A stretch of DNA of 16,078 nucleotides from Candidatus Altarchaeum sp. (lineage in GTDB: Archaea > Altiarchaeota > Altiarchaeia > Altiarchaeales > Altiarchaeaceae), in assembly GCA_018260755.1 (NCBI GenBank), contig JAGTWP010000032.1, positions 1-16,078 on the forward strand, in the 5' to 3' direction. The notes under the pieces are model-generated. The model had not been told where the DNA came from and searched no databases. It saw nothing but the letters and a program-made list of their open reading frames with translations. How positions within the stretch are numbered: position 1 is the first letter of the stretch; each line of letters opens with the position of its first letter. The translations under genes were made by a program, and so were the position numbers. Positions 1,623-10,334 of this stretch are shown one piece after another.

Positions 1623-1836
1623 ATTAATGAAATATCACATCTCATCTATTTGAACTATTGATTTCACCATCAACACTTGGTTCTAGCAATTTTTTTGTTA
1701 ATAGTTCTTATCTATTTCAAAACAGCTGTTCTATAAATTTCGGTTGATTTGATTCTGATTTTGGATAATCCTGTTTGTGATTTTTGTATTGTTTCACGGC
1801 TCGTTGAATAAATTTAAATAATTAAATAAAATTATT
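1623..1836. other. Gene-free AT-rich stretch
   Basis: I see no supported gene, RNA or clear repeat here. A 33-codon open stretch on the minus strand ending at 1712 lacks a start codon and was rejected. The right end grades into the duplicated block that begins at 1837. Confidence 0.5.
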
Positions 1837-2061
1837 TTTATTTTTATAGAAATTCATAATTTAATATGTTTATTTTTATAGAAATTCATAATTTAATACA
1901 TACAAAAATAATTTGCAGTATTAACCAAATTTAAACAAATAAAATTCGCAGATTACAAAAATAAAATTATTATTTATTTTTATAGAAATTCATAATTTAA
2001 TATGTTTATTTTTATAGAAATTCATAATTTAATACATACAAAAATAATTTGCAGTATTAAC
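1837..2061. repeat. Perfect 89-bp direct duplication with internal tandem repeats
   Basis: Bases 1837-1925 and 1973-2061 are identical over 89 bp, and a near-identical leader of about 13 bp (AAATAAAATTATT) precedes each. Within each copy a unit of about 29 bp centred on TTTTTATAGAAATTCATAA is itself repeated twice, giving four units in total. The second copy ends exactly where the TATA-like box of the following coiled-coil gene begins. The 47-bp spacer after copy one resembles the promoter-proximal region after copy two, so the block looks like a duplicated upstream region. It may be regulatory or simply slippage-derived. Confidence 0.9.
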
Positions 2062-2069
2062 TATAATAA
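2062..2069 (+). promoter_or_regulatory. TATA-like box of the coiled-coil gene
   Basis: TATAATAA sits 20-27 bases before the ATG at 2089. This is the archaeal TATA spacing expected if transcription starts at or next to the start codon. No Shine-Dalgarno motif is present, so a leaderless transcript is likely. The assignment is by position and composition only. Confidence 0.5.
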
Positions 2070-2088
2070 ATAATTAAACAAAAACAAA

Positions 2089-2805
2089 ATGGCAACACCA
2101 CAAAAAAACGCAGCGAACATCGCCGCGAATAAAAAAAAGATATATGAGTTGAAAAGGACCGTTGACGAAAACAGAAAGAACATACTCTTAAACAGGAGTA
2201 TGTTAATGGTGAATAGAAAAATGATGGAGCGAAACATGGAAGCAGCACTTGCTAACCGGATGCTTGCGGAGGAGAACACAAAAAACATCTTCCGCAACAG
2301 GAGAGCAGCGATGCACCTTCTTCCGGAGAATACTGATGTTGAGAGAAACATGAAAAATTCTCTTTTGAATAGGGCGAAGTCCCGCGAACTCATTGCAAAA
2401 GCAGAAATAAACGCAAAAATGATTGATGTGAACAGAGATATTATGGCAGTGAACGTTGGGATGAAGGCAGTAAACGACAAGATAAGAGGAATAAACGAAG
2501 AAATCATTGCAAAGAACTCTGAGAGGATTGCTGAGAACACCGAATGGATTGACAACGGATTCCCTGAAAAGCCTGATGTTGAGGAGAACGCAAAAAGAAT
2601 TGAGAAGAACGCAGAGAGAATTGATAAAGCATTGGCAATCGCAAAAGAGAACGCAGCGAAATGGCATGAGACAAGAAAGATGCTTCTTGAAAACAGAGAT
2701 GGAATTGAGGAGAACACAAAGAAGATTTACGCGAACAGGGATAAAATCCTTGCAAACGCAGATAAAATAAAGGCAAATTACGAGAAGGTAAAGGGCAAGT
2801 TTTAA
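2089..2805 (+). CDS. Asparagine-ladder coiled-coil protein, function unknown
   Basis: This 238-residue protein is almost entirely one heptad repeat of the form [I/V/hydrophobic]xxNxxx. With the hydrophobic residue at position a, Asn occupies position d in 25 of 29 heptads (for example N28, N35, N42, N49, N56, N63, N70; N108 to N150 every seven; N202 to N230 every seven). The exceptions are L21, L101, A181 and T195. Two ten-residue breaks, AMHLLPENTD (74-83) and IDNGFPEKPD (154-163), divide it into three coils of about 9-10 heptads. There is no signal peptide or membrane segment, so it is probably a cytoplasmic rod. Such N@d layers in trimeric autotransporter adhesins form parallel trimers that bind anions in the core. 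Asn is encoded mostly by AAC, unlike the AT-rich surroundings, which hints at strong expression. I recognise no named family. Confidence 0.85.
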   Translation: MATPQKNAANIAANKKKIYELKRTVDENRKNILLNRSMLMVNRKMMERNMEAALANRMLAEENTKNIFRNRRAAMHLLPENTDVERNMKNSLLNRAKSRELIAKAEINAKMIDVNRDIMAVNVGMKAVNDKIRGINEEIIAKNSERIAENTEWIDNGFPEKPDVEENAKRIEKNAERIDKALAIAKENAAKWHETRKMLLENRDGIEENTKKIYANRDKILANADKIKANYEKVKGKF

Positions 2806-3231: not shown

Positions 3232-4848
3232 ATGGCTTTTTGGCAACCCTTCAAGGCGGCAGTAAAAGAGTTTCTACAAATATTAGTAGCAAGCATTATT
3301 GTTGGTGCAATCGTCGGAACAATCGTTCAAATATTTTTGAAATTATTTTTCCAAATGCAAAACTGGGCTTTTAGCATGTTTGTTCAGGATCACATTTACA
3401 TCATCATCATTCCACTAATTGGTGCATTAATATCTTCTTTAATTTTACACAACAAATGGTTTAAACCAGGACACGGATGGGGTCCGGGACCTGATGTAAT
3501 GATAAAAGAATTTCATGACGAGGAAACCCAGGGGAAGAGTCACTGGACCGCTGGAATAGCAAAATTTTTTGCTCAATTATTTGGTGTTGGAATGGGTAAC
3601 AGCGGGGGTCTTGTGGGTCCTTTGGCAAGAATCGGACAAGGATTTATCTCACCTATAATGCCTTATCTCGAAAAACTAGGTGTTGACAGAAGACAACTTG
3701 CCATTATGGCGATGGCAGGAGGAATAGCTGGGATTTTAAGAATCCCCGTCGGTGCAGGAGTATTTGTTACCGAATTACTTCATGCAGGTGAAAAGATACC
3801 GAAAAAATATGTTATTGGAGGTGAATTGTCTGGGATGACTGCTGCTGCAACTTCTTTTATTGCGTTTGACGCGAACCCGTTTTTTGGCTACTTGCCTTAC
3901 ACGCTTGAGGTGTCACATCTCTGGTGGTTTGCAGTTCTCGGGTTTCTTGCGGGAATCGTTGGTTTAATATTTATTAAAACATTCCAGTTCAGCGTTAAAT
4001 TTTTCAAAAATTTAAATATTCCTGTTTATGCAAAACCGTTAATCGGCTCAATTGTACCCACGGTATTAGCGTTTATTTTGTTAACAATACCTATTGGCGA
4101 TTATGGAAATAATATCTTAACTTCATTTGATAAAGCCGCATCCGATGATAGTTTTTTAATATTGGGATATTATGGAGATGACCCTTCTAAAATAGCAGGC
4201 ATAGATGCTTCAAATAAAACATTGTATATTAAAGATGAATTTAACGACTCTCTCTCATATTCTCATTCAACACCTACTTATCTAGGCTTCGGTGCAGATA
4301 ATGTGCGAATGGCAAAAGCAGCCGAATACGACTCACAAACAGGGCTTGTGACAATGATGATAGCATCACAGATAGAACCTGTGTATGATGCAAACGGGAA
4401 TCAAATAGAAAAAGATGGTATAAAAGGATATGTAAACGGGTTGGAACTTCCTCTAATTGCTGCAATTGGCCTTCTTTTATTGATAATGTTCGGTAAGATA
4501 TTTGCAAACTCATGGTATGTCGGCTCGTTTGCAAGTGGGGGAATGGTAATGCCTGCAATAATCGTCGGGAGTTTGTTTGGTAGTGTGTTTGCATTAATTC
4601 TTGCGGGCCTTGGATTTATATCGCCGGATAATACAGCAGGTTATGTTGTAGTTGGTGGGCTTTCGGTACTTGCTGCGATGACGAACGCGCCGATAGGATG
4701 CGCTATTTTTGCACTTGTTATATTCGGCGTTCCGTTTGCAGTCCCTGCATTAATCGGAACAATGATAGCATGGCAGATTTCTAAATTCGAAACAATCTAC
4801 GAAGGAGAGATACCGAAAGGAGAGAGATACGCTCAGGCGAAAAGATAA
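3232..4848 (+). CDS. ClC-family chloride/anion channel
   Basis: This 538-residue polytopic membrane protein has ClC-family motifs in order. GPGPD (84-88) matches the GSGxP region. GNSGGLVGP (122-130) matches the GxEGP region. RIPVGAGVFVTEL (170-182) matches the helix G-H strand, and ASGGMVMPAIIVG (434-446) matches GGxFxPxxxxG. Y523 falls where the pore tyrosine lies. The gating glutamate of CLC-ec1 (E148) aligns with V128 and the internal proton glutamate (E203) with L182, so H+-coupled antiport is unlikely and a passive anion channel is more probable. A hydrophilic insert of about 100 residues (roughly 298-402) lies between membrane segments and looks like an external loop. There are no CBS domains. 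Substrate cannot be read from sequence; a proline near the selectivity serine position may alter anion preference, but that alignment is ambiguous. The upstream neighbour is the asparagine-ladder protein. Confidence 0.9.
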   Translation: MAFWQPFKAAVKEFLQILVASIIVGAIVGTIVQIFLKLFFQMQNWAFSMFVQDHIYIIIIPLIGALISSLILHNKWFKPGHGWGPGPDVMIKEFHDEETQGKSHWTAGIAKFFAQLFGVGMGNSGGLVGPLARIGQGFISPIMPYLEKLGVDRRQLAIMAMAGGIAGILRIPVGAGVFVTELLHAGEKIPKKYVIGGELSGMTAAATSFIAFDANPFFGYLPYTLEVSHLWWFAVLGFLAGIVGLIFIKTFQFSVKFFKNLNIPVYAKPLIGSIVPTVLAFILLTIPIGDYGNNILTSFDKAASDDSFLILGYYGDDPSKIAGIDASNKTLYIKDEFNDSLSYSHSTPTYLGFGADNVRMAKAAEYDSQTGLVTMMIASQIEPVYDANGNQIEKDGIKGYVNGLELPLIAAIGLLLLIMFGKIFANSWYVGSFASGGMVMPAIIVGSLFGSVFALILAGLGFISPDNTAGYVVVGGLSVLAAMTNAPIGCAIFALVIFGVPFAVPALIGTMIAWQISKFETIYEGEIPKGERYAQAKR

Positions 4849-7961: not shown

Positions 7962-10334
7962 TTATTCCATTGAAATTTTTGTCATTAAATCCATGACATC
8001 AGATAACTCCACTTCTCCGTTATTATTTAAATCACCGCAAAAATTTAATTCATATTTTTCTTTATCTCCACTCAAATATTCTAAAATTTCAACCGCATCA
8101 AAAATATCTATGCTGTTGTCTTTATTTACATCTCCAACTTTATCGCATTTTAAATTTTGAAATTTTGAAATGTAACCCACACATATTTTATCGTGCAATT
8201 CATTGCTATCTTTAAATTTCAAATCCACATTCTTAAATGAAAATTTTGTTTCGTTAAATTTACAATTACTTGCCATGTCTTTGCTAAAATAAATAAATAC
8301 ATTTTGCATTCCTTCTGTTAAATTTTTCTCATAATAAATATGTTCAACCTTGTTCCTATTACAATAAACATCCCCTTCTATTGTGTATGCTCCATTTTTT
8401 GTTATGTCCAACGTAACATTAACGCCGTATTCATAAATGTCCAAAAAATTTATAAAAGAAGATGTTGATGATTCAAATTGTGTACATTTGTAATAAGAGC
8501 TGCACCAGTCTGTACCTTTATCCTGTTTGTCATTGTCTTTATAAATTTCAACATTGACATTAAAATTTCCCTCCTTTTTACTATTTCTTATTGCTTTTCC
8601 GTCAAAACTCAATGTAATATTATTAATACCTTTTGTAAGCTCGGTTTCATTTGAAGTTGATGAAACATACGCTCCTGCAACATCTATACTTCCATCAATA
8701 CGATATGTTCCAGTTTCAGATATATTAACTGTAACAACGGCATTAAACGAATCATAAAGCAAATTGTGATTGTTGTCAGGAGTGTAATAATTTGCCAAGG
8801 TGTCAATAATTGATCCGTAAGTTACATTATTTTCAACCTTAAAGTAAAACCTTTTTTCATCCTTGTTCGTGCATTTAATTAAATATAAGCCCTTTGTATT
8901 TGGCGAGAAATTTAATAAATTTATTTCGCTTTTGAGTGTAGATGAATTATCCACATAAATGACTTTGATGAATGCATCCTCATTTAATGAAGATGAACAG
9001 CTTATATTGATTGTATCATTAATATAAAACACAGGCAATGTTCCATAAATTCCAAAATAATTTGAATTAATTGTCTTTTTTGCATTCTCGCTGAGGTCAA
9101 TTGTTAAATTTTCTTGTGTAAAATTTACCTCGTTTTTTTCAAATTTCAATAAAGGACTTCCTAACAGCACAAATTCCATAATTGTTCGTAATCTATCCAT
9201 GTCTAATCCCGCATTTATCATTCTTTCATAAGCATCTATGTATGCTTCTCCTGTTGTATTCTTGCTTGATGTCATGAAATATTCTAAAATTTCATTCATA
9301 TAACCAACATAATAATCGTCAACCGAGCCATTATCTATATATATCCATGCACTGCCGTAATTTACTCTGCTTCCTCCAACATAAGTAATACTATCTTTCT
9401 TTAATAAGTTCTCTGCAAAGCTTTTAGTATAATAACCCCAAATCGGAATTATTGAAGAATCATAAGCTCCGTTCATACAAGCAACCGAAACGAAAATTGC
9501 AGAAGAATTTGTATTGAAATTCCCTTGTGTGCAATCATTTGAAAAACAAGCAGAAACACCGCTTCCATGCCCAAAGTGAAAAACCATATCATAATTGTTT
9601 AATGCACCACTTAATTTTGAAGATGTGAAATTTCCATCGGTTTGAAAAAATTTAGTATAATTTAAATTTAAATTTTGCAGAGCATGCAATGCCGAAATTT
9701 CACCCATATATTCGTCATCACCACCAAAAAGTTTTCCTCCGAAGAGAGCGATTTTTGAAATCGTTTTATTATAATTTTTGAGCTTTTCAACCATCGCCGA
9801 TGCTTCCTGCTCATTATTAACCAAAATCCTTCCGACAGAATGTTTTATTGTCGGATTTTTCTCATCAAACACGGCATAAAATAAATCTGTCGGAACCCAG
9901 GAATTATATCCATCATAGGGGTCATAATAATATTTATCAAAATAATAATAACTCGGCGGAATTACCGTTGCATTACCAAACAAAATAACATAAGATGAAT
10001 TTTGCTGACTTAAAAATTTCCGTATTTTCTTTGCCAAGGTATAGTTAAATTTTCCAGCATCTTCAAAATTTTTTATTCCTTCCCACACACATAATGAATC
10101 GTCGCTATATCCTGGAAAATTAATCTCAAATTCGAAAAAATTTTCAAAATCGCCAACTTTATAAATTTCTACTGGAATGGTTTGCCTGTAAAAATTTGCC
10201 AAATCGTTCGCCTGTCCGTATAATTCATCTGAGGTTATAATTATTACCTTTGAAAAATTTTCTCCGTAAGCAACAGGAAAAAGACAAAATATCCCGAATG
10301 TGAGCCCTAAAATAAGCAAAATTTTTGCATTCAT
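7962..10334 (-). CDS. Secreted C25 (gingipain-like) cysteine peptidase with C-terminal dockerin
   Basis: The 790-residue protein starts with a signal peptide (about 1-24, MNAKILLILGLTFGIFCLFP then VAYG). The catalytic region (about 27-400) resembles the caspase-fold C25 family: FHFGHGSG supplies the histidine (H256) and FVSVACMNGA the cysteine (C286). The start of the fold is VIIITSDEL, and VGRILV precedes the active-site half. Beta-rich modules follow (about 420-720). The last 60 residues form a type I dockerin with two calcium-loop repeats, DVNKDNSIDIFDAVEIL (735-751) and DLNNNGEVELSDVMDLM (768-784). Many N-x-S/T sites suggest surface glycosylation. It is expected outside the cell, tethered or assembled through a cohesin partner that is not in this window. 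Substrate is unknown. It is transcribed divergently from the KH-domain gene and has no Shine-Dalgarno. Confidence 0.88.
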   Translation of the reverse strand: MNAKILLILGLTFGIFCLFPVAYGENFSKVIIITSDELYGQANDLANFYRQTIPVEIYKVGDFENFFEFEINFPGYSDDSLCVWEGIKNFEDAGKFNYTLAKKIRKFLSQQNSSYVILFGNATVIPPSYYYFDKYYYDPYDGYNSWVPTDLFYAVFDEKNPTIKHSVGRILVNNEQEASAMVEKLKNYNKTISKIALFGGKLFGGDDEYMGEISALHALQNLNLNYTKFFQTDGNFTSSKLSGALNNYDMVFHFGHGSGVSACFSNDCTQGNFNTNSSAIFVSVACMNGAYDSSIIPIWGYYTKSFAENLLKKDSITYVGGSRVNYGSAWIYIDNGSVDDYYVGYMNEILEYFMTSSKNTTGEAYIDAYERMINAGLDMDRLRTIMEFVLLGSPLLKFEKNEVNFTQENLTIDLSENAKKTINSNYFGIYGTLPVFYINDTINISCSSSLNEDAFIKVIYVDNSSTLKSEINLLNFSPNTKGLYLIKCTNKDEKRFYFKVENNVTYGSIIDTLANYYTPDNNHNLLYDSFNAVVTVNISETGTYRIDGSIDVAGAYVSSTSNETELTKGINNITLSFDGKAIRNSKKEGNFNVNVEIYKDNDKQDKGTDWCSSYYKCTQFESSTSSFINFLDIYEYGVNVTLDITKNGAYTIEGDVYCNRNKVEHIYYEKNLTEGMQNVFIYFSKDMASNCKFNETKFSFKNVDLKFKDSNELHDKICVGYISKFQNLKCDKVGDVNKDNSIDIFDAVEILEYLSGDKEKYELNFCGDLNNNGEVELSDVMDLMTKISME

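Follow-up and report, generated by a model that had tools for sequence, protein, structure and literature searches.

Coiled coils with layers of asparagine buried in their core are known from the stalks of adhesins and from viral fusion proteins. Engineered trimers become less stable with each Asn layer, and in solved structures such a layer may hold chloride. The closest examples for the present purpose are the stalks of trimeric autotransporter adhesins (SadA, PDB 2wpq and 2wpr; UspA1, 2qih), parallel trimers in whose interior chloride is coordinated by triads of Asn. The combination of Asn at heptad position d with Ile or Val at position a is a known chloride site of trimeric coiled coils, and a GCN4 trimer given two layers with Asn at d did not form in solution (PMC12933892).

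A protein sharing with these stalks, over part of its length, the Ile/Val at a and the Asn at d is encoded in the window, that is, the whole stretch of 16,078 nucleotides from Candidatus Altarchaeum sp. that was analyzed here (Table 1). It contains 32 Asn among its 238 residues, and these are placed far from randomly: 19 pairs were spaced by seven residues, compared with 4.1 expected (20,000 shuffles, maximum 13). A preliminary description of the sequence had counted Asn at d in 25 of 29 heptads, which was borne out, as Asn is found at 26 of 30 heptad sites (9/10, 9/10, and 8/10 in ladders 1, 2, and 3, respectively). The same description had the ladder running nearly without interruption over the whole protein. 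It does cover all three repeats, but in three separate registers (residues 7–70, 87–150, and 167–230), offset by exactly 80 residues and interrupted by the Pro/Gly-containing segments LLPENTDVE (77–85) and GFPEKPDVE (157–165). The best self-alignment of the protein was likewise obtained at a shift of 80 residues (42 identities over 158 positions), and, given this equal spacing, the protein is most simply regarded as a triplicated unit. That a hydrophobic residue accompanies Asn at position a proved correct for helix 3 (large hydrophobics at 9 of 10 sites) and roughly so for helix 1 (7 of 10, plus three Ala), but not for helix 2 (6 of 11), where Lys126 and Arg133 occupy a and the conserved hydrophobic residues lie on the opposite flank, at g and c. 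Heptads of the form [I/V]xxNxxx are a feature of helix 3 and of part of helix 1, and are absent from the middle of helix 2.

Table 1. Coordinates of the Asn-ladder gene, its parts, and associated features (positions in the window unless a locus is named).
Feature	Position	Strand	Remarks
Upstream 107-nt direct duplication	1828–1934 and 1964–2070 (region 1828..2070)	+	Two copies (93% identity) shortly before the ladder ORF
Asn-ladder protein gene	2089..2805	+	ATG at 2089, stop at 2805; three repeats of 80 residues in 238 aa, pI 9.8; based on ORF, orthologues, dN/dS
Helix 1, residues 4–76	2098..2316	+	Asn 7, 14, (L21), 28, 35, 42, 49, 56, 63, 70; AF2; ladder columns invariant 10/10
Turn 1, residues 77–82, LLPENT	2317..2334	+	Non-helical in AF2
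Helix 2, residues 83–156	2335..2556	+	Asn 87, 94, (L101), 108–150; g/c hydrophobics; ladder columns invariant 10/10
Turn 2, residues 157–163, GFPEKPD	2557..2577	+	GVPGAGNPTPDG in WOR_SM1_SCG paralogues
Helix 3, residues 164–237	2578..2799	+	I/VxxN[A/T/R] heptads; Asn 167, 174, (A181), 188, (T195), 202–230
CLC-family anion channel/transporter gene	3232..4848	+	PF00654, directly downstream of the ladder gene
CLC homologues	L010 13444–15063; L012 11256–12878		
HTH regulator and two small ORFs (88–100 aa)	L010 16064–17470; L011 4360–5808		

The host is indeed an archaeon, as had been supposed, and the relatives of the gene were found in other Altiarchaea. One orthologue (76% identity) is present in Ca. 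Altarchaeum HURL_140 (G003), which belongs to the same genus, and two copies (47–48% identity) are present in Altiarchaeales WOR_SM1_SCG (G026). No further relatives were detected by a profile search of 394 archaeal genomes. Weak matches in G006, G018, G027, G038, and G045 were dropped, those in G018, G027, and G038 lying in or overlapping unrelated genes. Neither did viral contigs or, by tblastn, a phage collection yield a relative. The protein matched no Pfam or NCBIfam family above the cut-off (the sole Pfam match below it was SecA_SW, 13.9 bits vs a cut-off of 26.7) and had no significant match in PHROG or the PDB. A pattern scan of the 394 archaeal genomes returned mostly low-complexity repeats, with no clear second Asn-ladder family among the matches inspected; in the genome of the window itself (L064, G000:C58), a 703-aa ORF frame with a very long, near-consecutive run of Asn was seen. 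The 107-nt copies upstream of the gene, which share the element TTTGCAGTATTAAC, possibly constitute a duplicated promoter. A by-eye comparison of the regions upstream of all four ladder genes revealed no common operator, only AT-rich, TATA-like leaders. Elsewhere in the window (7962–10334, minus strand) lies a gene for a secreted-looking archaeal peptidase of the C25 (gingipain) type that carries a dockerin at its C terminus.

Between the window protein and the G026 copies, 26 of 30 ladder sites were identical, compared with 81–84 of the 204 sites outside the ladder (P about 1e-6), and the 26 Asn columns were invariant in all four family sequences, irrespective of the fact that the codon switched between AAC and AAT in 18 of them. 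This synonymous variation rules out that the ladder is an artefact of tandemly repeated DNA. The comparison of the window gene with its 76% identical orthologue gave a dN of 0.14 and a dS of 1.13 (dN/dS about 0.12). Judged from these sequence comparisons (the excess identity of ladder sites, the codon switches, and the low dN/dS), the gene is under purifying selection, it is the protein sequence of the ladder on which selection acts, and conservation within the family is strongest at the ladder Asn.

Structure prediction was run on the monomer with the four-sequence alignment, input which would favor a single-chain fold. AF2 returned three helices of equal length joined by short turns for the window protein (residues 4–76, 83–156, and 164–237; pLDDT 79, pTM 0.63) in a bundle-like arrangement. 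When the alignment was led by a G026 paralogue, the three helices were kept, but the model was poor (pLDDT 58, pTM 0.35), so that the packing of the helices is not robust and is unproven. The best Foldseek match of the window model in the PDB, albeit weak (E 0.01, TM 0.40–0.42), was 4tql, a designed single-chain three-helix bundle. Matches by VIA-align were mostly to single-chain bundles of long helices (with Z reaching 12, as helical bundles commonly do), and a search against viral models gave weak long-helix matches only. The direction of the hydrophobic moment, calculated without Asn in the 7-residue frame, was compared with the Asn line. In helix 3, with Ile at a, it deviated by +54 to +94 degrees in all four sequences; in residues 105–143 of helix 2, it deviated by −54 to −57 degrees, again in all four, a stretch picked after inspection of the sequence, the offset of the whole helix 2 being only −2 to −19 degrees. 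Helix 1 lies between the two. The residues responsible at g and c of helix 2 (I118, V121, M125, V128, and I132) are invariant. Because an antiparallel helix is mirrored when viewed from the end of a bundle, helices 2 and 3 would carry their Asn on the same rotational side. The Asn lie on or beside the hydrophobic face. The opposite offsets are thus easier to reconcile with an up-down-up bundle than with a parallel homotrimeric rod, which gives no reason for them, and the ladder protein is probably a single-chain, up-down-up three-helix bundle.

The preliminary description had instead envisaged one soluble rod with some 25 stacked anion layers, by analogy with the chloride-binding trimers. The analogy holds for helix 3, which follows the [I/V]xxNxxx rule with its Asn by the hydrophobic face, but fails in the middle part of helix 2. 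A parallel homotrimer like those of SadA-type stalks and phage fibers, with chloride or another anion at each Asn layer and the Pro turns as local breaks, would be roughly 33 nm long. Such a rod is in keeping with the heptads of helix 3, and some of those of helix 1, which match the known chloride site, with long ladders of this type in many phage ORFs (one segment of which matches solved fragments of UspA1 and of trimeric adhesins), and with the CLC gene next door. It is nevertheless unlikely: the ladder changes register twice across Pro/Gly turns (the second reading GVPGAGNPTPDG in the paralogues), AF2 separates the chain into three helices that bundle in the monomer model, the Lys, Arg, and Glu at position a of helix 2 would be stacked threefold, and helices 2 and 3 have opposite offsets. 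Two Asn layers were already sufficient to block a GCN4 trimer in solution (PMC12933892), and the archaeal protein, in which no signal peptide or membrane-spanning stretch was seen on inspection, lacks the anchor of an exported stalk.

Beside the ladder gene in G003 and on contig C297 of G026, a divergent HTH regulator gene (HxlR-like) is followed by an ORF of 89–91 aa with only one Asn ladder (motif ENREMILENR) and by a further, helical-looking ORF of 88–100 aa. The family profile recognized the single-ladder ORF through its helix-3 section, with an E value of about 1e-5, a match to which compositional bias may contribute. A one-helix relative, taken together with the threefold repeat in one chain, fits a history in which a homotrimer of a one-helix protein would have become a fused three-helix bundle.

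The gene directly downstream of the ladder gene encodes a clear member of the CLC chloride channels/transporters (PF00654, Voltage_CLC; E 4.4e-47, 161 bits vs a cut-off of 24.8). The same arrangement was found at three of the four ladder loci (the window, G003, and contig C225 of G026), the fourth (contig C297 of G026) being without a CLC gene. Among the 29 genomes of the class, a close homologue of this CLC (79–80% identity) was present in exactly the three genomes that have a ladder gene, a small sample of three genomes from two lineages. In G001 and G002, incomplete genomes (65% and 87%) of the same genus, neither the ladder gene nor a close CLC was found. The CLC proteins are ∼80% identical in both comparisons, despite the fact that threonyl-tRNA synthetase (ThrRS) of the window genome is only 46% identical to that of G026, compared with 85–87% within the genus. 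This suggests that the ladder/CLC cassette either moved laterally between Altiarchaeal families or is under unusual constraint. As to ThrRS itself, G003 carries three extra fragments of its N-terminal editing domain (77–80% identical) upstream of the full-length gene (G003:C104:4334-15912).

In known CLC proteins, replacement of the external and internal gating glutamates by such residues as Val and Leu would mean a channel-like or uncoupled protein. When the CLC of the window was aligned with 1kpl (a weak alignment, E 0.0035), Val128 and Leu182/183 coincided with the external and the internal gating glutamate, respectively, and these residues were invariant in the three CLC sequences. The glutamate pair expected of an H+/Cl− exchanger is hence absent in this alignment, which suggests that the adjacent CLC is a channel or an uncoupled form. 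A CLC neighbor makes a link of the ladder protein to anions more plausible than could be known from the ladder alone, a functional tie between the two proteins is likely, and an anion-handling role for the ladder protein is plausible.

The composition of the protein could also be read differently. With a net charge of +13 (K+R minus D+E), a pI of 9.8, and Arg or Lys directly after 10 of its 32 Asn (the dipeptide NR occurs nine times), it could be a basic helical protein that binds nucleic acids or other polyanions and acts on DNA, RNA, or membranes, its linkage to CLC being incidental; the divergent HTH regulator genes at two of the loci would be in line with this. Such a function is improbable, however, as no nucleic-acid-binding family was matched, the ladder Asn are placed on the hydrophobic side, and the CLC linkage is kept across two families.

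The reading that best accommodates these observations, and which is put forward tentatively, is that a soluble three-helix bundle with Asn layers cooperates with an apparently channel-type CLC. Triplication of one ∼80-residue Asn-ladder helix would have given rise to a soluble, basic, all-helical protein, folding as a single up-down-up chain about 11 nm long. If the turns are taken as midpoints, the ten sites of each helix would align into ten layers (7/150/167 to 70/87/230), seven of them with three Asn and the other three with one or two Asn plus Leu, Ala, or Thr; this matching was derived from residue numbering, with symmetric turns assumed, and not from coordinates. The Asn layers would form a polar, hydrogen-bonding stripe through the core that fixes the register and in which water or an anion might be accommodated, and the bundle would probably act with the adjacent CLC, as its cytoplasmic partner or as an anion-responsive regulator or buffer. 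It is somewhat doubtful that the layers do bind anions.

Even less probable, and in fact quite unlikely, is the most far-reaching variant, in which up to ten Asn layers of the fused bundle bind chloride or another halide cooperatively and the bundle, folding or reshaping with the cytoplasmic anion concentration, is a soluble chloride sensor that gates or reports to the CLC. Conversely, the Asn could form only a buried, anion-free hydrogen-bond network that, much as in designed HBNet oligomers, keeps the helices in register and the protein soluble, the protein serving as a structural spacer or adaptor. The best sequence match in the PDB, 6nx2, a design with repeated Asn (weak, E 0.051), and the presence of 5j0l, a designed hydrogen-bond-network oligomer, among the fold matches point in this direction; yet the matches are weak, the designs share only a principle of construction with the ladder protein, and the linkage to an anion channel would be left unexplained, which renders this alternative rather unlikely as well. 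Should the preferred reading, the Asn-layered bundle acting with the CLC, be correct, the protein would offer a natural system in which to ask how many polar layers can be built into a helical core, and whether Asn layers sense or hold anions could be tested directly.

Unlike the adhesin stalks of SadA and UspA1, the ladder protein possesses no signal peptide, no C-terminal outer-membrane β-barrel anchor (the ORF is helical throughout in AF2), and no anchor or head domain detectable with Pfam; its ladder is divided into three by Pro/Gly, Arg or Lys is often found at position e, and its helix 2 departs from the rule of a hydrophobic residue at a. None of the trimeric autotransporter adhesin chains in the PDB was matched by phmmer up to an E value of 10. 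The designed bundle 4tql is of nearly equal length (229–235 vs 238 aa) and likewise has three long helices, but it is only 15–17% identical to the ladder protein. The designed hydrogen-bond-network oligomers 5j0l and 6nx2 ("AAA"), whose buried polar layers consist of repeated Asn, have no evolutionary relation to it.

Very long runs of heptad-spaced Asn are also found in phage tail-fiber-like ORFs. A pattern scan of viral contigs gave many ORFs with longer ladders, including ones with 40, 39, and 34 heptad-spaced Asn, which disposes of the idea that the archaeal ladder is unique or unprecedented in length. The longest ladders seen in this analysis (34–40 Asn; L109, L116, L201, and L123) are natural test cases for multilayer anion binding. 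The phage ladders, made of IxxNT or IxxNA with small polar and few charged residues, differ from the charged ladder of the archaeal protein. What is unusual about the latter is not its length, but that a charged, soluble, triplicated ladder with turns occurs in an archaeon and beside a CLC gene.
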